NCBI RefSeq assembly: GCF_030936135.1
Contig: NC_082596.1
Span: 100,773,383-100,837,382, forward strand
Source of the DNA: Gavia stellata
Taxonomy: Eukaryota > Chordata > Aves > Gaviiformes > Gaviidae
Reading direction: 5' to 3'
Length of the DNA stretch: 64,000 nt
Shown here: positions 3,132 to 57,444 of the stretch, piece by piece
How positions within the stretch are numbered: position 1 is the stretch's first letter
Layout of the letters: the number at the start of each line of letters is the position of its first letter
Program-made: the position numbers and the translations under genes
The notes under the pieces: model-generated
The model's input: only the letters and a program-made list of their open reading frames with translations
Databases searched by the model: none
Told to the model about the DNA's origin: nothing

Positions 3132-14179
<11,048 letters not shown>

Positions 14180-30747: not shown

Positions 30748-31268
30748 TCATTCAACCCCCAAGAGCTGAGGCGCAGTGTCTGCAGAGGCAAGGATGTGAT
30801 TCATGGGAGACTTTTTGTTGTGCACCTCCAGCAAGTCTTGAATGAAACCTGAGGGCCTCTCGTGCTCAGAGCTACCCCGAGGTTCCTGGTCTTTTGCTGT
30901 CTGTTTCTGTGCACTCTTGGTGGGCTCCACGAGGCAGGTGCCAGCTCCTCGCTCGCTCAGCCTCTCCTCTCTGCAGGGGGAGTCCTTGGCCGTGCCAGCC
31001 AGGGACTCTCTTCGGCTTCCCATGAGTGATGTATGGCTACTGACAGCCCCCGCAGAGTCGCACTCATTTTCTGAGATGGGGTTGGTGCCACTGTGGCTAG
31101 ACTCATTTTCGCTGTCTTCTCCACACCTCGACTGGGTCTCCTCCTTGTCGCTCTCCTTCCCATGGTTTCGGGCATTTTTGACTTTCTGATGTATGCGCTG
31201 GTGACGAACCAGGCTGTGTTTCAGAGTGAAGGTCCGTTCACAGGTTTGACACTTGTACGGTCTCTCAC
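30748..31268 (-). CDS. RREB1: RREB1 last coding exon
   Basis: The acceptor TTCTAG|GTGAG opens the exon in phase 1. It encodes [20 protein letters not shown] and on to the zinc ligands H-x3-H (finger at 31189-31251), the last finger of the protein, with the classical TGERPY linker bridging the exon junction. The rest is a Ser/Glu/Lys-rich, probably disordered tail ending [10 protein letters not shown], with TGA at 30748-30750. The finger is essentially identical to the mammalian one; the tail is diverged. Confidence 0.96.
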
Positions 31269-34200: not shown

Positions 34201-37200
34201 ATTTCTGCTCCCTCAATAGGCTTTATATGCAGCATGGGGGATTGGGGCAGAGAAGACACCTTGCAGGCACCCGTAGGACTAAAAGCAATGCCTCCAACCT
34301 CAAGTGCTAACAGCAATCGTGCATCTACAGAGCAGATGCCTCAGTCCGGTGGCAGACCTGCTTGTAATCTGTTCTGTCCTCAAGTCTCCTCTTACCTGTA
34401 TGAGACCGCATATGTCGCGTCAGATCTTGCAGAGACCAGAAACGCTTGTTGCACACAGTACAGACTTTCTTTCTTTTGTCTGCTTTTGCAGTACTCTTAG
34501 CCCCATCAGTCTTTGGTTTTTTGTCATCACTGCTCTTCTCAGTGGACTTTCTCTCTGTGCCTTCCCCCTCAGAGATGCTTTCGCTCTCTTCATTCTCCTT
34601 TCCTGTTGCCTCACAGTCCACAGGAGACTCCACTACCTTCAAGTCCATCGGAGACTCTTCCTGCTCAAGACCAGAGTCCTGCATCGAGGGAGCTCCTGCA
34701 TCATCCTGAATGCTTTTGCTTTCATCCTCACTGCTCCTTTCATCCTTTCTGTCCTCACGAGTGTGGGCCTTTTTGTGACGGCTAAGAGTGCCAGCAAACT
34801 TGAAGGTTTTGCCACAAATGTCACAGGCATGTTTCCTTTCAGTCTGAGAACTGCTGCCTGCACTCTGGTTACTCTCTGCCAGCTTGAAGTCCATTAATTT
34901 GCTGGCAAAATTGAGGTCAAGACTTTTGTTACTTACAGAATCTTCCTCAGGGCCCTCTTCATATCCATCCGCTTTTTCTTCAGCATCCTCTTCTGCCAGA
35001 GGGCAGTCAGCCTTTTGCTCCTCCTTGGGGCCGCACTCACTCTCTGGTAGCTCTGTTATTTCCTCTGGCTGTTCCTTCTCGCAGGAGGTCAGGTCCAAGA
35101 CTTCGTTTCCTGTAGCTAGTGTCTCCGCATCAGACTGGCTGTCTGCAAGCAAACAGAGAAAAACTTTCAGTGGGATGCTCTCCGCTAATTCACAACTAGA
35201 AGTGGTAAGGCTGCACATGGACCCACGAGCATTGCTTCTGATCAAGTGTCCCAACATCTTTTTCTCTTATCTGTGACCCAGGCCAGTAACTTACAGCTGA
35301 AACAGAGATTGAAACACCACAGAACCCAATTAACAAGATGATTAAAAATCTGTAACGAAATGCTTTCTTTCCCAAAATATACTCACTTTTTTGGCAGTTT
35401 CTTGAAGTAACTTTTAATATAATCACTTTTACCAGAGAATGCAAAATGCCAAGAGATCAAAGAAGAGTTGAGATCACTACTATTGCAAATACACTGTACC
35501 AGAGACACATGGATGTATTATTTAGAATATTTCACGTATGAGATTTGGATATAGTTGAAGTAATATACAACCACATATTAATCAAACTAACTTATTAGCT
35601 ATAAGTAGCGGGAAATGCTTTTCAAAGGGAATGTAAAGGCCTAACCAACCAACTGCTACAATTAAATGTTAAAGGTTAGCGCAGACAATAACACAGAGGT
35701 CAGTTAAAAAGTTGGGTATATATCATATAAGTGAAAGATGCAAAAGTTTGTCCACATGTGGGTCTTTGACACACACTCTTTGTTACACCGATACCTCCTG
35801 GAACCAAAACATAAAAGCCAAGATGCAGTTAACAGGCAGCATCCTTCATTGTTTCACAGTTCCCCCAACAAGAAAGCAAAACGCACCTAAGACATCCACC
35901 TTAATGACCTCTGCTTCCTTACCAGTTTGTAGCATTAACATTGCTGAAGACATAACATGTTGAAAAAAATAAAACAGATAAAGCGCTTAAGGAGAACAAA
36001 GGGCTGAAGCTGTACCCCTTCCAAGCTCTATACAAATAGTGTACATGTAAATAGGAAATAAGCTGGATGGGATCTGGAGGCCAAAGCTGACGATGATGCA
36101 CGGCATGTAACTGCATCCCCTCCAGTGCCACTTTCCAGCAACCGTTCCAGGACACGAACTTAGCAAGTTGTGCTTTCTGAAAGTTGAAACTTTCCTTGCT
36201 TTAAGCCCTCCCTCGCACCCCCTTCTTGTTGACAGCATACAGCCAAGGGAGCACACAACCTAACAGGCATTTCAGCATTCAGCTGCAGGCCTGATAGCTG
36301 CTGAGTAACTACAGGGATTTAGAAACTCTAGTAGAGCAGTTTAAATTCTCCATTTGACATAGTACAACATGTGCTTGTCTCCGAATTGCCTAGATTTCCT
36401 ACTACAGGCTTTTTTCATAAGCAAGGAGTAATGACAGGAGATAAGAAGATAGTTCTCAGGCACTTGGTAGTTTGAATGCAACATAACTTGCATTGACCCC
36501 ATCTCCTTGCACAAATGATAATAAATGGCTGTTAAACAAATGTCAAAGCTAAGCAGCATTTCCAGTAATCGTGAACAATCACTTAATAGAGCATAATCCT
36601 TGATACACTTTTTCTTGGAGGGGTGAAAGGGGGTGAAGTGACCTGTCAAAAAAAATCATCTCACCTTTTAATCAAAACAGATCCGTTTACATAGACAGTG
36701 GATTACACAAAAGCTTTCCACAAAGTTCATTGCTCATCTAATTATCTGCCCATTAAAACATGCAACTGAGCCATAATCTGTGTATAATGGTAGAGAATTT
36801 GAGGATGTGGGCATCTGAAAACAAAGGTCACCTACAAGTGCCCTATGAATCTGTACTTGAATTCTGTATTTTGACTCATTGCTTATCTCTTGGCTAAATT
36901 AAGGCAAAAAAACCTCCCCTATTATAAACAAAAAGAGGTAATTTCTAAAAATCAAGCTGAAATGCTGATGCATAATAATTAAGGGGAAGCACTGCTCTGC
37001 AATTCAGAGAAATGGGAGCCAGGCATGTATGAGAAGCCAGGTCCATGCATGGTGCTCCTGGATACAAGGCAGGCAGCCGAGTCTCACAGCTGCCGGTGCA
37101 GGCAAGAGAGTGAGCCCAGAAGCCAAACCCAGGCTGTACCTACACAGAGGATACGTTTAAAAAGGAAGCACAGCTATGGGTTTCTGCCTGCCGCCTTCTT

Positions 37201-43200: not shown

Positions 43201-46200
43201 TCAAAGTGACACAAAGTGACCGTGTCTCCCCTGGAGGTGTGAACACCATACAGCAATGGCTCCCTTCTGCAATCACTTTTCAAGCAAGGGACATGTACCA
43301 CCATCTGCTGAGCTTCCTCCTTGCATCTATCCCATTTGGTCAGCACAGAAAAACCCTGAGTGACTGTGCTCACCCTTGGTTTCGTGTCAGCTTGTCCCTT
43401 CTGACTAAATGCCCCTTCCCTGCCTACAACAAAGCCTTGCGTGATCGGACAATCAATCTCCTTTGCTGCAAAACTCTCAAAACAGAGTGTGCAAGAAGAT
43501 GGCGGGTGAGCTTCAATGCAGATGAATTTAAGGTAAAATACCTCTGGAAAAATAATGTAAAATATGCTTATGTGATGCTAAACATGCTAGTGACAGGTAC
43601 ATTCAGGCAGGACGTCTCAGAACCATCGCTGACAGCTCTCCAGGACCACTGGCTTGGCCTGCAGCAGTAGCCAAACTAAAGCCAAGAAACGCTGGGTACC
43701 ATGAGCAAGAGTATTAAAAGCAAGACCAAGGGTGTCCCTTTGCTGCTGCGTAAAGCCCTGGTGTGGTGTGCCCTCGTTTCAGGTGGTGTGTGCACTTCTG
43801 GTCTCCACGCTGCAGGAAGGAGGTAAGTCATCTTGCAGACGGCAGACAGCAAACCCGATCCAAGCGATAGGGCAGCTGCCCTGTGAAGAGACACCAGAAA
43901 GGCTCGGGCTCCTCATTTTGAAGGAGAGAAAGGGGGTGTTACAATTGAGATTTACAAATTGTGAAGGCAGCTGAGAGGGCGCACAAAGAACTGCAATTCA
44001 CCAAATCCTGCAATACTGGAACTAAGGGTGGCTCTCTGAAACTAGCAGAGGATCAGCTGAAAACAGATTAAAAATAGTTATTTAGACAGCACCATAGTGA
44101 ACTTCTGGAGCTTGATGCCAGATGAGGTTGGAGGCAGGCAGCATCAGCGGGTTCAGAAAGCAGTTGGAGAGACTTGCGGACAACAGGTCCCTGAACAGGT
44201 AGTAAAGGGAGCAGGTGGGGATGTGCCCTCTAACAGGGAACCCTAATGCAGCAGTTGTGGATGCTGATAGAGCATTCAGAGGAACAGGAAGTCGCCAGGC
44301 CCACATGTTCACCCTAAATAGCACATCCTACTGCTACCATCAGAGACACAAGTACTTGGCTGCATGTACCACCGCTCTAATGTGGCAGGGCACTTCCTAA
44401 TGTCCTTACGCTTTGCTTGTCTGCAGCATTCAGTCTGACCAAACACAACTTGGGCTTGCTATTCTGAACAGCTGGGAAAAAACTGCATGTGCTATTGTGA
44501 TATCCAGCATCCTCTTCCTTAGACTGGGGGAATAAGCACATTTGTCCTCAGGTAGCAACTGGCAACTCCAGGTTTGTGCAAATTCTGTTAGATTTGGTAC
44601 AAAAGACAACAACACATTTTTGACAGGGGAAGGGCTTCTGGACTGACACAAAAAAAAGAATGTCTCTCTGTCCTAATGTGTAATAACAAACTTCTTTAGT
44701 TTTTTTCCCCCTTTACTGCTTGGTGACCAACTACAACATCCTGACTGCAAGCTCCTCAACAGCAGGCTCTCTCCTGAGATGTCTGTCACCCGTGTGAATC
44801 TGACACTTCTGTCAAAGCCACGGGGCATCTTTCCATTGAATTCAGTAGAATCAAGCCCCAAATGTTGAATAAGCAATCAATTACTTCCCCACAGGAGAAA
44901 GTTTTTCACGACTGTAATTTATTTAAATGACTAGCACAAGGGAAGCGACTGAGTGCAGGAAGTTGAAAGAAAAGCCAGGATTATGCAGTGCAATGAGGAA
45001 AGTGGTCCTGCACGACATCTTCGTGACGAAGAAAGAGATTGTGAGGGTAGTTACACGTAAAAGGAGATCAGCTGCACACACACACAGAGACACACAAAAC
45101 ACCCTGCCCTCTCAGCTAGTAGCCTCTTTGAGACAACATTGTGGGTGCGTTTCTCACTTTAATCTTCCGCAAGTTGGTTCTGTTCTAATTAACATCTCAA
45201 CCTGTACGAGGGATTCCCTGCATCTTGCAGACATCCCAGGCGCTGTTTCTTTCCCTTCATTTTCTTCCAGTGTGAACACAACTTTTTAGAAGCATCAAGG
45301 CACTGCCTTTTTGTAGGCTTTCAAGTCACTCCTCCTTTTTAGATGCCTGCTAAGCCAACCATAAATTTATGGTTACAAATACCACCACTTTCTGCACTTT
45401 TATTTGGCTTCATTCACAATGCAAATACAAAACAGAACTTCGAAGTTGAGCAGAAATCCTTTTGCTTCATGATAGCCCAATTCCTTTCCACATTTCTTTT
45501 CAAGCATGCAATGACAGGATTAGCTGAGGATTAATTACTTGAAACTCAACCTGCATCTCAGGTCACAATTTTCTCATATTTTCAGCCTTTAAAACTTTCA
45601 TATCAACCAAATATTTGTCATACAGAACAATACTTAAAACAGATAGGATATTCTTCTTTCCACACAAACATCCTTGTTGGTGATCTCAAAACCCAAACAA
45701 AAATCCTGCTTACTGTGCAAACTCCAATCCTCCCAGCCCAAGTTACAGTCCTATTCCCAAATGGAAACCAGACTGCTTTCCAAAAATGTCACCTTTAAAG
45801 GCACAAAAAAGATCATTCGAAAAAGCAGTATTTTCTGCTTCCTGTATTGTCGCCTAAAGGCAACTGCTCTTCTCATAAAATATACTTACTCACTGGAAGG
45901 TAACCTGAACAATCAGTTTAAGTGCAATGTGATTTGATTTTTTATTAACCTTTTTTGTAAGAACGGTCGTGGCTTGGATTAAAATACATCTGTGTCTATA
46001 TACTGACTCAGAACTTACCCTAAAATTTGGTCAGCAGCACAGCAGGACTAGTCTAGGCTGGACACTTCATAGAAGCCAGTCATTTGAAGGGAGTCTTTTT
46101 CAATATAAAGGGTCATCTAAATAATCACAGCATGTAAGAAGATCATTCCTTAATTAAGTTATCTCCTGCTATTGTTGTCCTACTGGAAACATACTATTGC

Positions 46201-49200: not shown

Positions 49201-52200
49201 ACCTTTAGCTGTCTAGCACTGCGAAGAAACATTTCCTAGATGCAAGGTACTACGTAACGCTCAGGATGATGTTTCTCGCATTCTCCTTCTTTGATCTGTC
49301 AAATAAAAGCCACCGCAAGGAAAAAAAAATGCTAAACACTGTGTTATTTTGTTTTCCTGCCACAATTCTATACTTATTTGCTCTCATTTTTATGGATCTT
49401 TTTGTCATTACTGATGCAGACAAACAGCCACTGGAAGCAAGCAAACAAACCACGTAAGGCACAATGAAATATTCAACACACACGTTCACCTTCAAGATAA
49501 GACAATAATAACATAACACCTGAAACCAGAATCTTTTCCCAGGTATGCTAAGTTATGCCACTTAAGTCAAATGGGTTTTAGCAGTTTAATTTGCCCCCTT
49601 ACTACTCAAAGGCACAGAGATTACTCCGTTACTGAAAAATTTAACACTATATTAAACTATACAACAGCAACAGCTAGGGATTTGCAAAATAACAAAGAAT
49701 ACCATTCAGACATCAGAGAGAGGACAAGAAAGGAAGATTCCTCCATGGGGAGGCCCTTTCATGAGGAACATCCTCAGGGGCTACAATCCACCATGAGCAC
49801 AAGCTGGTCTTACCTGTGTGAGTGAGCATGTGCCGCTGCAGGGAATTTGCCCATGGAAAGACTCGAGAACAGTAAGGACAGGGGATATTTTGCAGGCAGT
49901 CTGAGTAAGCATTCCTCTTCCCTCTCAGCAGCTTATCTTCGGCAGTTTCCTTCTCATCCTCACTTGTTCCATTTCTGCCGCTTTCCTCCTTGAAATTGTC
50001 AGTGGACTGCAGAAACGGGCTAAATTTATTAGTGTCTGTGGTAGCCAGCATCTTCTCTATGCTGGCAAACTCCCCACTTGACTCCAGATCCACACCACTG
50101 CTAAGTTTAGGCTTATTTTTCGTTCCTTTCTTTCTACCTCTTTTCTTAGCCGACCCAACATCGGCAATGGGAGACTGCTCTGGATCACACACCTGAGACA
50201 GGTCACTGGGCAAGCTGGAGTCTCTCTGAACGGCGGTCACGATTGTCACTTTTGCTTTGGCGTTCCCTGATTTGTCACACCCAGTGGAGCCGCTCACTGC
50301 CTTGGGACTAGCATCTGCAGCCTCCGTATTCAGCAAAGCGGGAGCAGAAGACACCGATGAAATGATCTGTGCAATGGAAGCCAATGGTGGCAGCTCTTTA
50401 GTTACTAGAGGCTTTGGCAAGAGAGGTGGCGGTGGTGGTTTAGGCCTCAAGGGTCTCAGCAAGGCAGAATTGCCAAGGAGAGCCGGGGAAATGATCGGGA
50501 CAGTCAAATGCAACGAACCTTTCAGTGGCTGGGGATGTCTGACAGCCCTGTTTTTCTCTGAGTTCCCATTGGCACCAAAAACCAAAGGACACTGCAGACA
50601 GTTATAGGCTTTATCACTGTTCCCAGAAGCAGCCAACTCTGGATTCCTGGCTTCACATGGGACATCATCTTTATCCTTCTTCAGGGCTTTGGGGATGGAC
50701 AGGTCAATGGGCTCCATGGAACAGTCGTAGAGGGACAGGGGAGAAGAGCCAAACAGGTTCTCCTGCTTCACTTGCATGGCACTCAAGTTTTTGTTCTTCT
50801 GAGAGAAATCCAACGGCTCATCAAAATCCATCGGGAAGTTGCCCGCAGGTTCAAGTTTGATGGGAACATGAGATGACGTCCCAAGCAAGAAGCCATTTTG
50901 TGGCTCCAGGAAAGGCGTCATGGGCTTGCGGTCCACATAAGTGCTGTCCTCCAATAAAGGAGGATCTGTCTGGTTTTCCTGGGCACTGCAGTCCACTGCT
51001 AAGATGTAATTCTCAATCTCTCTTTCTTGCACATGCAAGTGCTGCTTGAGGATATGGTGAATGCAATTTCTCTTGGCCGAAAAGGCTGTGCCACACTCCT
51101 TGCACTCAAACGGCTTCTTCTTCTGGCAGCCGCTGTGCGTCCTCATGTGAATGCGGAGGGCCCGGTAATGCTTCAGGTCCTCGCCACACAGCTTGCACAC
51201 AGTGTCTGGAGAGCAAAAGGCATCCACCATCTCTGCGGCATTGCTGGTGACATACTCGATGTTCTTCTCTATATCCTTCCTGGTCACTTTGAGGTGCTTC
51301 TTTCGCAGGTGCCTCTCACAATTGGCTTTCACTGTGAACGGGTAGTGGCAGATTTTACAGATGTAAGGCCTCTCCCCGCTGTGTGTCCGCAGGTGCCGGA
51401 TCAGTGCTGCTTTGTCAGCTGCGATGTAGTCACAGATGTTGCACTGGTATGGGGAAATACCCAAGTGAGAACGGATATGAGCTCTCAGGACACCAGAGAA
51501 GGCAAACACCTGGTCACAGAAACGGCAGGGGTACAAAACTTTCCTCATGGTTGGGGCTTTCTTGTTCGCTGCCCCTGCGATGATGGCTTTGAGGTCCCCT
51601 TCTGTCACCTCTTGCTTGATCTTGGCTTCCATGCTCAGAGGCAGGAGAGCTTCAATGATGCTGTCCTGCTCCAGTTGTGTCTTCATCTCGTGCTGAGTTA
51701 AAGGCTCTACTTTGGGTTGGAGGAGCAACTGCGAGGATGGACTTGATTTGGCTCCTGGCTGGGGGAGGTGAGAGTTGGAGGAGGACTCCACCGAGTTCTT
51801 GATCAGCCTCAGAGGGGGAGGTGGGAGACTTGGGCTGATGCAGCCAGGGGAGGCTTGCTGGGCACTGATAAGAGGAGGAGGTGTAGAGGTTGCAACGACT
51901 GTTCGGGGTGTTACCAAAGGCTTTGGCTTCAGTGGCGGCATATGCTTGAAAATGGACTGCACAGGGACAGAAGGTGCCTTAGAAAGTGGAGGAAGACTGA
52001 TCTGAGGAGGAGCGGAAGAAGCCATCTTTAAGATCTGCTGAATGTCTGCCAGCTCAATGGCAGACTCATTGGAGATGGGTTTTACCACAATACTGCTGTC
52101 AGGCTGGATGATAAAACCCTTCTGGAAAGGCTGCAGCGAGAGGAGCTTTATGTTTTCTTTTGTAGGGGGAAGGACTGAAAATGACCCTCCCATAGAGGCA

Positions 52201-54541
52201 GCTTCCAGAGGAGAGAGGCTGAGCAGACCGGTGCTGCCGGGTTCCTGAGGTAGGTTACTCTTCAGTGCTCTGAGCCGCATTTCTTGGACCTCATCTTGTG
52301 TATTGTCCTCCTGCTTGACAGGCTTGATGTCTTTGGTGTACTGTAGGCCCAAGGATGCCATGAAGGCTTTCTGGTCTGGGTTCTCACCAGGTGGGGTCAT
52401 GGACTGTGCCTTGTGCTTGTCTTTCCCCTGATCCACCACGTGAGTTTCTGTGTGCAGTTTGAGCGCCGAAAGCATGGGGAATGCCTTGTTACACGTCTCG
52501 CAAATAAATCGATGGAAGTCACTGATGCACCTTCGCAAATTTGTTTCACACCAGACCTGCAAGACATGCAAAAATATTTAGAGTAGACATCTCAAACTGT
52601 AAAGGCATCACATGCTGCTGCAAAACAAAAACAGTTCACTCTCTCTTCCACTGCCCAAGTTAAGGAGTTTAAAGCAGCCACCACCTACCTGGCATGGAGA
52701 TATTCCTGCTCCACAGCCTTTAGTCACCTAAGCAGTGTATCTAAATTAGGGGCTGATTCTCCAGCAGTTCCCTTCTATAAAGGCAAACTCCTTCAGAGGG
52801 CTATTCAGACTCTCAAATACTTTTCCATCCTGAACTTCCCTTCCAGAAACCTCTCTCACTTCACTGACAGGACAGGAGCCTCAGCAGACTATACAGCAAA
52901 CTTCAGTAAGCTGGGCAGCAAGACTACCTCCTTTAGCTTTATTACTACAAAGAAACTAGGAGGAGAGGAGAAAAAAAAAGGCACCCAAGAAGGTAAAACA
53001 ACATAAACCAACCAAAATAATATCCCCCAAAAGCAAATCAATGAAATGTAGAGCCCAAAGCGGAAAGGCTTTTGGTTAGTGAAGTCTCATTACATTCATT
53101 CTCCCAAGAAAAAAACTAACCTCACAAATGGGTTTTATACCTGTACCTGAAAACGATCATGAATCAAAATGGTATATTTAAATGCTACCCAGATAGCTCA
53201 CATGTTGCAAAGGTTCCACATCAAAGGAGAGCACAAGTGATGAATTAAGTAGAGGGCTGGCAAGATCTTTATATACTCTAAACACCTTCTTCAGATACTT
53301 TGTAGGTCTTGCCTCATAGTGCAAGCAAAATTATTACAAAAGGGAAGTCCCAACATTTAAATCCCTTAATAATTTTAAATGTTTGCCATTAATTACAAAA
53401 GAAATAAACCCAAGTTGTATAAAGTTCTCTCTTCTCATGATTTTGTAACTTTTACACCAGAGTTATAGAACGCCCTACATGCTCCCCTAGACCAGCAGCA
53501 AATTTAAGGTCTACCACCTTGCAGCCACAAGAACTGGAAATCAATGCTTTAATCCAAGGAGAATAAGAAAAGTGCAGATACTGAGTAAGCATGTTCCTGA
53601 TGGATTGTGCTGTTGATGTATTTATTTTTATTTGTTTAATAGATAAGCAGCTTCATCCAGACCCAAGCCAACTAAGGCAGGCAAGGTTTGACAGAGGGAG
53701 GAATAATACCATCCAACAGAAAGCTTTATGGATCTCAGAAAAATATTTACAGACTCTCTGCCTTTCCCCAGTCAGTTACCCTCAAAGGTGCAAAATCTTC
53801 AGAATTCACATAAGGAACATAGTAGAAAGGTATTTGGGAGTTTTTAGTGAAGAAGTCACTGAAGATGTCACCATTCAGTACGTAAGGTGACTTCCCGAAG
53901 TTTTTCATGATAAAATCTTTCGCACCACAACTGCATCCTTGTTACAGTAAATTAAAATAAATAATGCCTCCCTTACCACATGTCCTCCCTATTGATTTTA
54001 GATGTGGGATGGTTTGGGGAATGTGAGAATTAATGGGCAGGCTGGAAGGGGCAAGGATCTAATAACAGCACCCAAGTTTTCCTTCAAAAAATTTTTACAG
54101 ATCTTTACTCCAATAGTTATCCACTGGAATGCTGAAAAAAAACCAAAACCCAAATATTCTCTAGATGAGAAAAGGAAAGGCAGGAAGTGTTTGAAGCCTA
54201 CACAGACAGTGGTAATGTGCTTCCCACAAAATATTCTACACCCCACAAAATATTCTACACCCAATCTCTGCCTCATCAAGGACGAGTCTTTCAATGAATT
54301 CAGAATGCACTTCATCAGTTGGTTCCTGAAGTTATGAAGAACAGAGCTTACCTGAGAAATGCGGGGGAACTTCCTACAGGAGAAGTCTGTGAATCCCAAG
54401 TCATGGAAGCCTGCCGGAATCGAAGGGTTGTTCTGAATGAAAGGCTTTCCCATGGGATCTCTGGGAAGCTGCTTGTGGATAACTGCATTATGGCGCAGTA
54501 AGCCCCGATGAGTACGAAAGGTAATACAACAGATGTCACAC
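30748..54541 (-). CDS. RREB1: RREB1, 3' part of gene (4 coding exons, partial)
   Basis: Ras-responsive element-binding protein 1, a large nuclear C2H2 zinc-finger transcription factor (vertebrate relative of Drosophila hindsight). It acts downstream of Ras/MAPK and cooperates with SMADs and CtBP-type corepressors. Exons in transcript order are 54352-54541, 49814-52556, 34396-35142 and 30748-31268. They join in phase to 1,399 residues plus TGA and contain 11 canonical C2H2 fingers, one decayed finger, acidic and proline-rich linkers, two PxDLS-like CtBP motifs and a basic AT-hook-like patch. The protein ends QLLGVE (human QLVGME, from memory). The N terminus, about 230 residues with four fingers in human, lies beyond position 64000. 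The 55-codon finger exon known from mammals is only a fossil here (44486-44642). Confidence 0.96.
31269..34395 (-). other. RREB1: RREB1 last intron
   Basis: A 3.1-kb intron. A 13-bp direct repeat ATTAATAAGGATG (33672-33698) is present. No coding exon or clear mobile element was recognised. Confidence 0.85.
34396..35142 (-). CDS. RREB1: RREB1 penultimate coding exon, two fingers
   Basis: It opens after TTGCTTGCAG in phase 1 with [20 protein letters not shown], then a long acidic region. A C2H2 finger, [19 protein letters not shown] and on (34763-34825), and a second, [20 protein letters not shown] and on (34400-34462), are separated by a Ser/Glu/Lys-rich linker. VLDLTS resembles a weak CtBP-binding motif. 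The exon ends HTG|GTAAG in phase 1, matching the following exon. It agrees closely with the mammalian protein. The 197-codon open frame on the opposite strand is a shadow. Confidence 0.96.
43700..44290 (+). mobile_element. Decayed CR1/L3-type LINE fragment
   Basis: The sequence from about 43748 (TAAAGCCCTGGTGTGG) through TGTGTGCACTTCTGGTCTCC and GCAGGAAGGAGG matches the order of the reverse-transcriptase 3' region of CR1/L3 LINEs. Later landmarks follow in the same order: GGAACTAAGGGTGGC, GAAACTAGCAG, GCACCATAGTGAAC, GATGAGGTTGGAGGC and GGACAACAGGTCCCTGAACA. It has many stops and small indels, so it is old and inactive. It lies antisense to RREB1. The family is judged from memory of consensus sequences, and the borders are approximate. 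Confidence 0.7.
44486..44642 (-). pseudogene. RREB1: Fossil RREB1 zinc-finger exon
   Basis: An acceptor CTTTTTTTTGTGTCAG is intact before 44642. Frame one then reads [18 protein letters not shown], against [18 protein letters not shown] in human (from memory). About 10 bases are then missing where the two zinc-binding histidines should be. From 44569 a shifted frame reads [14 protein letters not shown] (human GVTTCSLRRNGLIP). One extra C restores the first frame as [13 protein letters not shown] (human QSKESDVGSHDST). Frame one also has a TGA, and the donor site has become ACATGCAG, without GT. The remnant is 157 nt against 165 in human. Position, strand and order all fit the exon between the two neighbouring RREB1 exons, both joined in phase 1, so skipping it is harmless to the frame. 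Confidence 0.85.
49814..52556 (-). CDS. RREB1: RREB1 large central exon, seven fingers
   Basis: 2,743 nt open from the acceptor TCTTGCAG|GTCTGG to ACACAG|GTAAG. One finger begins [19 protein letters not shown] (52440-52502). A cluster of five (51039-51527) includes [38 protein letters not shown] and [20 protein letters not shown] last finger, [19 protein letters not shown], lies at 49818-49880. Between them are proline-rich stretches, four SUMO-type sites (VKQE twice, IKQE, IKLE), CtBP-type motifs PLDFS (50802-50816) and PIDLS (50697-50711), and the basic patch [10 protein letters not shown]-hook-like but without the usual proline. A decayed finger lies at 50535-50606. The fingers are almost invariant with human; the linkers diverge. 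The exon ends in phase 1. Confidence 0.97.
50535..50606 (-). other. RREB1: Decayed C2H2 finger inside RREB1
   Basis: The translated stretch [20 protein letters not shown], then AVRH, has the spacing of a C2H2 finger: C-x2-C, Phe four residues on, then x12 to the first His position, which is Asn (codon 50550-50552), and a second His five residues later. The core Leu is Ser. It cannot bind zinc in the classical way. In human the aligned stretch has lost the cysteine pair (from memory). Confidence 0.6.
52557..54351 (-). other. RREB1: RREB1 intron between first two window exons
   Basis: A 1.8-kb AT-rich phase-0 intron. A perfect 19-bp tandem duplication lies at 54223-54260. Nothing else was recognised. 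Confidence 0.88.
54223..54260. repeat. Perfect 19-bp tandem duplication
   Basis: CCCACAAAATATTCTACAC occurs twice in succession about 90 bases past the donor of the exon at 54352-54541. A recent slippage-type event. Confidence 0.9.
54352..54541 (-). CDS. RREB1: RREB1 exon, one finger and conserved linker
   Basis: Acceptor CTTTCCTTTCCAG; the first base completes an Arg codon (previous exon phase 2). It encodes a C2H2 finger [20 protein letters not shown] and on with H-x4-H, then a linker with [20 protein letters not shown] and [11 protein letters not shown]. It is near-identical to the mammalian protein. The donor is CAG|GTAAGC in phase 0, agreeing with the large exon that follows. It is the first RREB1 exon in the window; the upstream exon with HCPVCFKEF-type sequence in mammals is not present before 64000. 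Confidence 0.96.
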
Positions 54542-57444
54542 CTGGAAAGGAAAGGAATAAAATAGAAATTACTTACTGACTGCTGTAAGCTTAAGAAGTA
54601 CATTCTTCTCGTATTAGGCCAGCCTCTTTCTCTTGCCCCATGATACTAAGAACCTGCTAAATGCAAAACGAAGCCACAGCGTGTCAAAAACCTATCACCA
54701 CAGAAAGGCCATTTCAATCACAGTCACTTTCTACCAGTTTCTGGCTATTAAGTTCACTGGAAGTTCAAAGAATATATTGCATGAGAACTGAGCATCCCAC
54801 GTGGGCAGATGGCGAAGTGGCAGCCGAGACCACAGCCTTCCGACAACCTTCCCATAGTTTGACATAAAATATTTCAATGGCTTTACACCATTTCATTTTT
54901 ACTAAAAAGTACTACTAAAATAAAAGACATTTTAAAAAACTCAGTGACAAGGAGAGGCTAAATCAGACCTAAGTAGCAAGCAGCTGCAAATGTATAAATA
55001 GCACCTTTTTTAACTACTGCTTAAAACGTACTACTACAGACCACTCAAATACCCATATATGAATTTTCTCTGCACTGCCTTTCCATAAACTGTCACTGAT
55101 TTTTCTCAAAGCTGTTATGAGAAATATACTGTTTTAAAAGAAAAACTAGTGCTCCTTGAAGGGAAGGAGGGTCAGAAGAGGAAGACCTGAAACAGGTTCA
55201 ATGCTTCTGACACTTACACATTCCCTTCACAGTCAGCATGTCCCAAAGAAAAACGCAGAGGCAGTATTTTTTCCCTACCCACACCTTATTGTTATGATTT
55301 CTTGTTTTTCTTAAGTTCTCAAATCCCAAATTCAGATAAACAAACCTTTCTCACATAAAGTAGACTTGTGTTAAACAATCAAAGGTACTAGAAATGCAGC
55401 TATGCTGCAGGCAGTAAGGACTACACAGCAACATTTCGCCAACACATCGACAAACAAGCCTATTGCCTTTTAAATATCTGGGATTTGAGCTCTGCAGCAT
55501 GACAGGTCATGTCCACTCTGCATTCAACAAGTCACACACAGTTTCACTCAACATGGTTCCTTGTGGTTACAGGTCCAGTTCACAACCAAAGCATGAGTTT
55601 CACAGAAGCAAACACCAGTGAATGTGAAGCAGTCAGATTCTGTCAGTGAGAATATTATATGCACTAGGAGTTTTTCACGTCTCCCCCTGCCTTAGTTCTC
55701 CCCATACTGTCTTCACCCTCCACATCAAGGAAAAGGACATATGCCTACTCATTAAAAAAACATCCTGCAATTAGAAATGACTTCTGACAAATTCCTGAAA
55801 CCACTCCCTCCCTGTCCTGTCCCTAACAAACTCCCATTGTTGTTCTTTTTATCACTACATAAACTTCCACAGACCTTTTTTATTCCCTGAAAATGAAGAG
55901 ATAACCAAGTCACCCACAAAGCAATTGGACTCATAGTCTCTGAGTGGTGAAAGAAGCAAGTGTGAAGTATATGTAACACGGCCTTTGTTATCACGGTACC
56001 CAGAAGGCTGGGACATAAATACTATGCACTGGAGGTTTAATCTGTTTTATCTCCCCTGTCAATTCACTTGCATCCTACCTTTATAATAATTGCCAGCATA
56101 GTCCCTGCATTCCATTAAATACCGAACTAATGCCGTTTACAAAGCAAACGTTTACTTAAAGATGTCTGCTAAATATGACAATAATCTCTGGTGGTGGGGT
56201 GAGAATGCCAACACGTAGCGCTCCTCCAGCGTCAGGATCTACAGCTCTCCTCCAGCTCACTTGGCAGCACCCATTCCATGATGCAAAGCTTTCATCTTCA
56301 GCGAAAACAAAAACAGACAACCACCAAAACCGCTGAGGGAAGGAGGGCATTAAAGGGTTAGAGCAGTCACCTGAAGAACTTGCAGGCTACTGAAGTAAGT
56401 TCTTTTTTAGAGGTGATGAAAACACCTCACGTGAAAGCAAGCAGTGCTTCTGGCACGCTCCTCCTGGTACGTTAGCATACGGACAACGAGGGCTTGCAAG
56501 CAATGCTCCTGCACCCCCGGGAGCATCGCTGGTGGTCTGTGGGGCGAGCTGTTCTGCAGAGGGACGCAGACCCTCACCTTAGGGCGTCCTGAGGCAGCTC
56601 TGGGGTCCCCACTATGTCTGGCCTCTCCCGGAACAGCAACCCAATGCAGCGGCCGTATCCCCTCGTGTGTGATGAGGCAGGCACAGCTACCAATGATGGG
56701 ACCACAGAGCTACTGGGAGAGCTGGTGCCTGCCACGGTACCCCCAGGATTTGGGCTGAGCAGGAGCCAGTGGTCCTGGGCAAGCAGCCAGCCCCCCCCGC
56801 AGTGGGGAGATGCGCTTCATCCATCTTGCACTCCCTCACCCCCACTGGGTGCGTGACACACGCCGATTTTAAGCACTGATTTATTTAGGGCTCGCATCAA
56901 AGGCTGCACTTGAGAGTAAATCTTTCAGAGCAGAGACCCGTGTGAAAGTCCTTCACAGTACACCTGTATCAACTACTATGCCTCAGGACAGTAAAAATTT
57001 GCAATTTAAAAACGGTGTTTTCCATGCAAAGGGAACTGCCTCTCCTCCCCCAAAAGAAAGGTAGTGTATCTTGAGAAAGGAACATGTACTTTCTCTCTTT
57101 TATAATGCACAGAATTAAAAACCCCTCTGTATTTTTCTCTGTATTCAACAATGCATAGAATTAAACACTTCCTCTATATTTTGCAGCAAGCAAAAAGAGA
57201 AGTCGGGAAAAGGATTAAGCTCTTTTTCCATTTGGTCAAAAAGAAGCTCCTGGCTGAAAAAAGAAACATCCAGATAAATCATGACTGTCATCTCAAGATG
57301 CAGGCACTTCAGGGCATATAAATGCACCGTGCCCTGGCTCAGCACCTTCCCCTGGTGTCACAGTTCACAGGATCAGATGGGAGCTGGAGCACAGGAGAGA
57401 CCCATGGATGCCCTCCCTTCCTCTGCCGTCCAGGCACACCTGCA

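Follow-up and report, generated by a model that had tools for sequence, protein, structure and literature searches.

Probable remains of coding exon 8 of RREB1, a zinc-finger cassette exon in mammals, between live exons of the gene in Gavia stellata

RREB1 is a RAS-responsive transcription factor, and its human isoforms of 188, 181 and 159 kDa are taken here to be proteins of 1742, 1687 and 1476 residues, respectively. The excerpted text of PMC7495420 gives three human RREB1 isoforms with these masses, which fits the lengths of 1742 and 1687 residues. According to the parts of PMC10780896 used here, the mouse Rreb1 form V7 leaves out the eighth coding exon (exon 12), which holds one zinc finger, and has a later start, without one N-terminal finger; V7 shows strong enrichment in spinal cord and eye as well as in brain, where it is the predominant form. 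The methods text of that paper states that an "eighth coding exon" probe detects all transcripts, which conflicts with the skipping of this exon in V7, and our reading follows two mutually consistent passages of the paper over its methods text. By the lengths given in these parts of the paper, V7 falls 136 residues short of the long form. Only one methionine of the human sequence fits the removal of one N-terminal finger; a start there takes away 82 residues, so that the skipped exon would account for the other 54, compared with 55 expected, a sum that applies human numbering to mouse lengths. The same parts of PMC10780896 leave undecided whether it is the exon-12 finger itself that counts or only the timing and place of each form.

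Single exons that are skipped in some species and lost or inactivated in others have been described elsewhere. In the portion of PMC12992808 available, TNNI3 exon 3 is reported as lost in moles and shrews and partly skipped in bats, and the exon described below resembles it in this respect. The TNNI3 loss has comparative and functional evidence behind it, whereas the RREB1 loss is known from one genome, with no phenotype. The amelotin pseudogene of birds, as described in an extract of PMC4373244, likewise represents coding sequence that decayed in bird DNA after disuse. In that case, however, the whole gene was lost 80–100 million years ago and is hardly recognisable (PMC4373244, same extract), whereas in RREB1 the gene is alive, one exon is lost and the relic is easily recognised. 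The loss of an exon is a known type of event, and it is the identity of the gene that makes the relic informative. Among the papers listed on exon loss and splicing and on RREB1 isoforms and chicken, with subscription journals largely missing, no report of the loss of RREB1 exon 8 appeared.

The window analysed here, a stretch of 64 kb of the Gavia stellata genome, contains a 14.7-kb RREB1 intron with an exon relic of 156 nt (165 − 10 + 1) on the minus strand at positions 44642–44487. We consider with high confidence that this relic represents the dead remains of coding exon 8 of RREB1, which in mammals is a phase-1 cassette exon of 55 codons encoding one C2H2 finger. When the 55 residues of the human exon were aligned with the intron in a frameshift-aware manner, the relic scored 139, whereas shuffles of the whole peptide (n = 60) averaged 37.8 and did not exceed 47, the reversed peptide scored 36 and the other strand 34. 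The human exon letters used as the query are an assumed sequence and not a database entry, though a peptide with wrong letters would be unlikely to score as high as 139. We take the second peak in the intron, with a score of 61 at 44287, to be the trailing end of the relic's own alignment, and the next peak scored 37.

The relic consists of three blocks, each lying in the ancestral frame of the exon and defined by codon alignment and block shuffles. Block 1 (44587–44640, minus strand) comprises 18 residues, 14 of which are identical to the human exon, and keeps both finger cysteines (CQKC). Block 2 (44528–44569, minus strand) and block 3 (44488–44526, minus strand) comprise 14 and 13 residues with 9 identities each. 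The ungapped scores of blocks 1, 2 and 3 were 79, 44 and 47, respectively, against maxima of 37, 39 and 32 in 300 shuffles of each, so that none of the 300 shuffles matched the score of any block. Across the relic, 32 of the 45 aligned codons are identical to the human exon, a count that omits 10 of the 55 codons: the first, which is split, and the nine that surround the deletion described below.

In a search of the whole genome (1.32 Gb), in which 150 of 287 candidates were scored, the relic was the top of the 159 matches listed (tblastn, E = 3.5e-6; 51% over query positions 6–61, with one TGA), and the next-ranked of the matches listed were open zinc-finger-like frames, one of them being exon 7 of RREB1 itself. 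The 27-residue tail of the exon scored 45 at the relic and at most 32 at seven other loci from this search, and the DNA of the relic, compared with the genome, matched itself and nothing else. Searching the genome with the exon tail alone gave no match, a result that carries no weight because the frameshifted relic was missed as well. A search of solved structures returned 139 matching sequences (E ≤ 0.01), and the best 60 of them were other zinc-finger proteins. Among genome contigs scanned for contaminating vertebrate sequence there was one finger match at 48%, and viral contigs gave no match.

The coding exons of the host gene were mapped with human RREB1 over the window and a further stretch of about 97 kb past its upper edge. 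Six exon matches, gap-free over the human protein, precede the large exon; the large exon is therefore coding exon 7, and the relic occupies slot 8. Exon 6 lies at 54352–54543 on the minus strand (extent of the match only; tblastn 92%). The large multi-finger exon 7 (49814–52556, minus strand) has 912 open codons and ends in the donor CAG/GTAAGA. On the other side of the relic, exon 9 (34396–35142, minus strand) is 747 nt long with phase 1 at both ends, and 144 of its 241 aligned residues are identical to the human sequence; it is followed by exon 10, the last coding exon (30748–31268, minus strand), which ends in LLGVE and a stop and matches at 52% in tblastn over the human residues. The host gene appears otherwise whole, in that exons 7, 9 and 10 are open and exons 1–6 are all matched. 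Exon 7 had a single full-length match in the genome, alongside 11 partial finger matches (50 of 2272 candidates scored) and exon 9 had one match; RREB1 appears to be single-copy in Gavia stellata.

Much of what had been proposed for the locus from its sequence is confirmed. The original prediction had placed three blocks of the exon in order on the minus strand, where each beats all of its shuffles and the joint score is well above that of the shuffled peptide; it had also identified the locus as the fossil of the 55-codon exon, in agreement with score, strand, slot and phase. The flanking exons were correctly described as phase 1, and the junction that joins exon 7 to exon 9 translates in frame, so that skipping keeps the reading frame. 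The span needed a small correction, in that the start at 44642 holds, but the end had been set one base too far at 44486 and should be 44487. An intact second copy of the exon would have contradicted the identification; none was found in the 64-kb window, in the genome, where 150 of 287 candidates were scored, or at the seven further loci.

Three disabling lesions are counted in the relic: two frameshifts and a dead donor. Codon alignment shows that 17 nt at 44570–44586 (minus strand) stand for 27 nt in the human exon, a net deletion of 10 nt that takes out or shifts both zinc-binding histidines, though its exact position is ambiguous. One C has been inserted at 44527 (minus strand) in a run of C, shifting the frame before block 3. 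At the old donor (44485–44486, minus strand), GC stands instead of GT, preceded by T (CAT/GCAGTT at the boundary), and the site scores −4.18 bits (−4.2 against +11.0 bits for the live donor of exon 7). The acceptor survives at 44643–44660 (minus strand) with a pyrimidine tract and CAG at the exact exon edge, and scores 7.81 bits (7.8 against 9.5 bits for exon 9); these splice-site scores use assumed consensus frequencies. The deletion across the histidines, the inserted base and the loss of the donor had all been foreseen in the original prediction. Its view of the acceptor as usable agrees with the score, though the site is unremarkable, as 42 of the 1089 AG sites in the intron, the relic acceptor counted, equal or exceed it. 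The in-frame TGA that it had listed as separate damage did not hold up. The TGA is read only in the frame of block 1 carried on past the deletion, and the same bases are CTG AGG in the frame of block 2; since only the frame shift of the deletion exposes the TGA, it is not an independent lesion and is excluded from the count. In the ancestral frame, none of the 45 alignable codons is a stop.

By substitutions, the relic does not stand apart from live sequence. In the finger part, 14 of 18 residues are identical to human in the relic and 25 of 31 in the live finger stretch at the end of exon 7; in the tail, the values are 18 of 27 in the relic and 144 of 241 in live exon 9. In this respect its decay does not clearly exceed that of live exons, so it could be young. 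What marks the exon as dead is its frameshifts and its lost donor, and not its substitutions. The mildness of the decay (0 of 45 stops and 32 of 45 matches to human) weighs against death, as does the intact acceptor.

Because the acceptor is intact, the relic might still be spliced at times to a donor downstream, acting as a poison exon with the TGA or giving RREB1 without its last three fingers. A GTAAGG donor of 4.8 bits lies 77 nt beyond the old end and would define a candidate exon of 233 nt ending at 44410, two more donors of about 5.1 bits lie further downstream, and reading through from exon 7 into the relic gives 35 residues. These donors are ordinary, however, as 70 of the 948 GT sites in the intron score 5 or more, and within 3 kb downstream of the acceptor there is only one A[AT]TAAA site, 1.7 kb off. 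An acceptor and a premature stop are present, the original donor is dead and the downstream donors are ordinary. We regard such splicing as improbable.

Smaller still is the chance that the relic is not the orthologous exon, but resembles it by coincidence or derives from a different RREB1 finger as a stray copy. Block 1 is mostly generic finger sequence, scoring up to 55 in the remaining window, and other RREB1 fingers score up to 84 with the whole peptide; yet the relic scores 139, and the non-finger blocks 2 and 3, with 44 and 47 at the relic, score no more than 29 elsewhere in the window. The edges, strand, phase and slot of the relic are all consistent with the orthologous exon, and no intact exon 8 was found elsewhere in the intron. 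We give equally little credence to assembly errors within a live exon, for although a change of one base in a C run is a typical long-read error, the net loss of 10 nt and the change at the donor are unlike read errors, and the adjacent exons 7 and 9 are open.

The best reading is that the 55-codon exon persists here as a fossil and that losing it fixed the shorter form, and this reading is supported. The eighth coding exon of mouse Rreb1 resembles the relic in gene, slot, single zinc finger and optional splicing, as far as the quoted passages of PMC10780896 describe it. The mouse exon is alive and optional, whereas the bird copy is broken, so that skipping would be permanent. As the relic lies in slot 8 and V7, in those passages, skips the same slot, the reading as a fossil and a shorter form gains support that is independent of the original prediction.

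Considering these results, we propose the following as a likely scenario. The ancestor of the bird would have carried exon 8 alive, as suggested by the mammalian exon, both in its human letters and in the passages of PMC10780896. The exon would already have been optional, its skipping costing 55 residues and no reading frame. Its loss may then have been tolerated, after which the donor mutations, the net 10-nt deletion and the 1-nt insertion would have built up; we infer this order of the lesions in time. Present-day splicing would lead from exon 7 directly to exon 9, and presumably no transcript uses the relic. Judging from the genomic sequence, the bird probably makes only the RREB1 form without the exon-8 finger, and the predicted protein would lack this finger in every tissue, like V7 of mouse nerve tissue. 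It is conceivable, though doubtful, that with the death of exon 8 the RREB1 of a whole bird clade became confined to the exon-8-skipped state, which in mice is found mainly in the nervous system, so that one of two isoform programmes ended in all tissues of that clade. If the exon has been lost for good, the bird would amount to a natural experiment on the dispensability of the finger.

The age of the loss was estimated by simulating the neutral decay of 45 codons, with 3000 runs per setting and an assumed identity to human of 80–100% at death. The best-fit divergence since death was 0.06–0.15 substitutions per site, with support from 0.02 to 0.26, where 0.02 is the lower edge of the grid and not a closed limit. 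The intron rate used for birds was 2.0–3.9e-9 per site per year, as given in part of PMC2946954. With this rate, the best fits correspond to about 15–75 million years and the outer range to 5 or fewer up to 130 million years, rough values with wide error that depend on the assumed human letters, on a single sequence, on treating replacements before death as random and on the identity chosen for the time of death. The comparison with live exons 7 and 9, whose identities to human are close to those of the relic, weakens the estimate further. The split between birds and crocodiles dates to about 245 million years ago, and the loss of the exon is probably younger than that split.

Three further observations concern this genome. 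In the first coding exon of RREB1 (L025:3736-3915, minus strand), the codon at the position of human Met1 is not ATG, and the frame is open upstream toward an acceptor-like stretch; the start of bird RREB1 may be the equivalent of Met20 or lie within an earlier exon. SSR1 lies tail to tail with RREB1 at 3132–14176 on the plus strand of the window, where human SSR1 gave eight ordered tblastn matches, beginning in a GC-rich stretch at 2–4 kb, and the order of these neighbours is presumably the same in human. Elsewhere in the genome, a long mitochondrial insert (L012:3450-9305, in C44) carries, in order, ND5, cytochrome b, tRNA-Pro and ND6 (on the other strand), then tRNA-Leu, ND1 and ND2-like frames, where all names but those of cytochrome b and the tRNAs are our own assignment. 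ND6 after cytochrome b is the avian mitochondrial gene order, and cytochrome b was matched solely at this insert (13 of 13 candidates scored).
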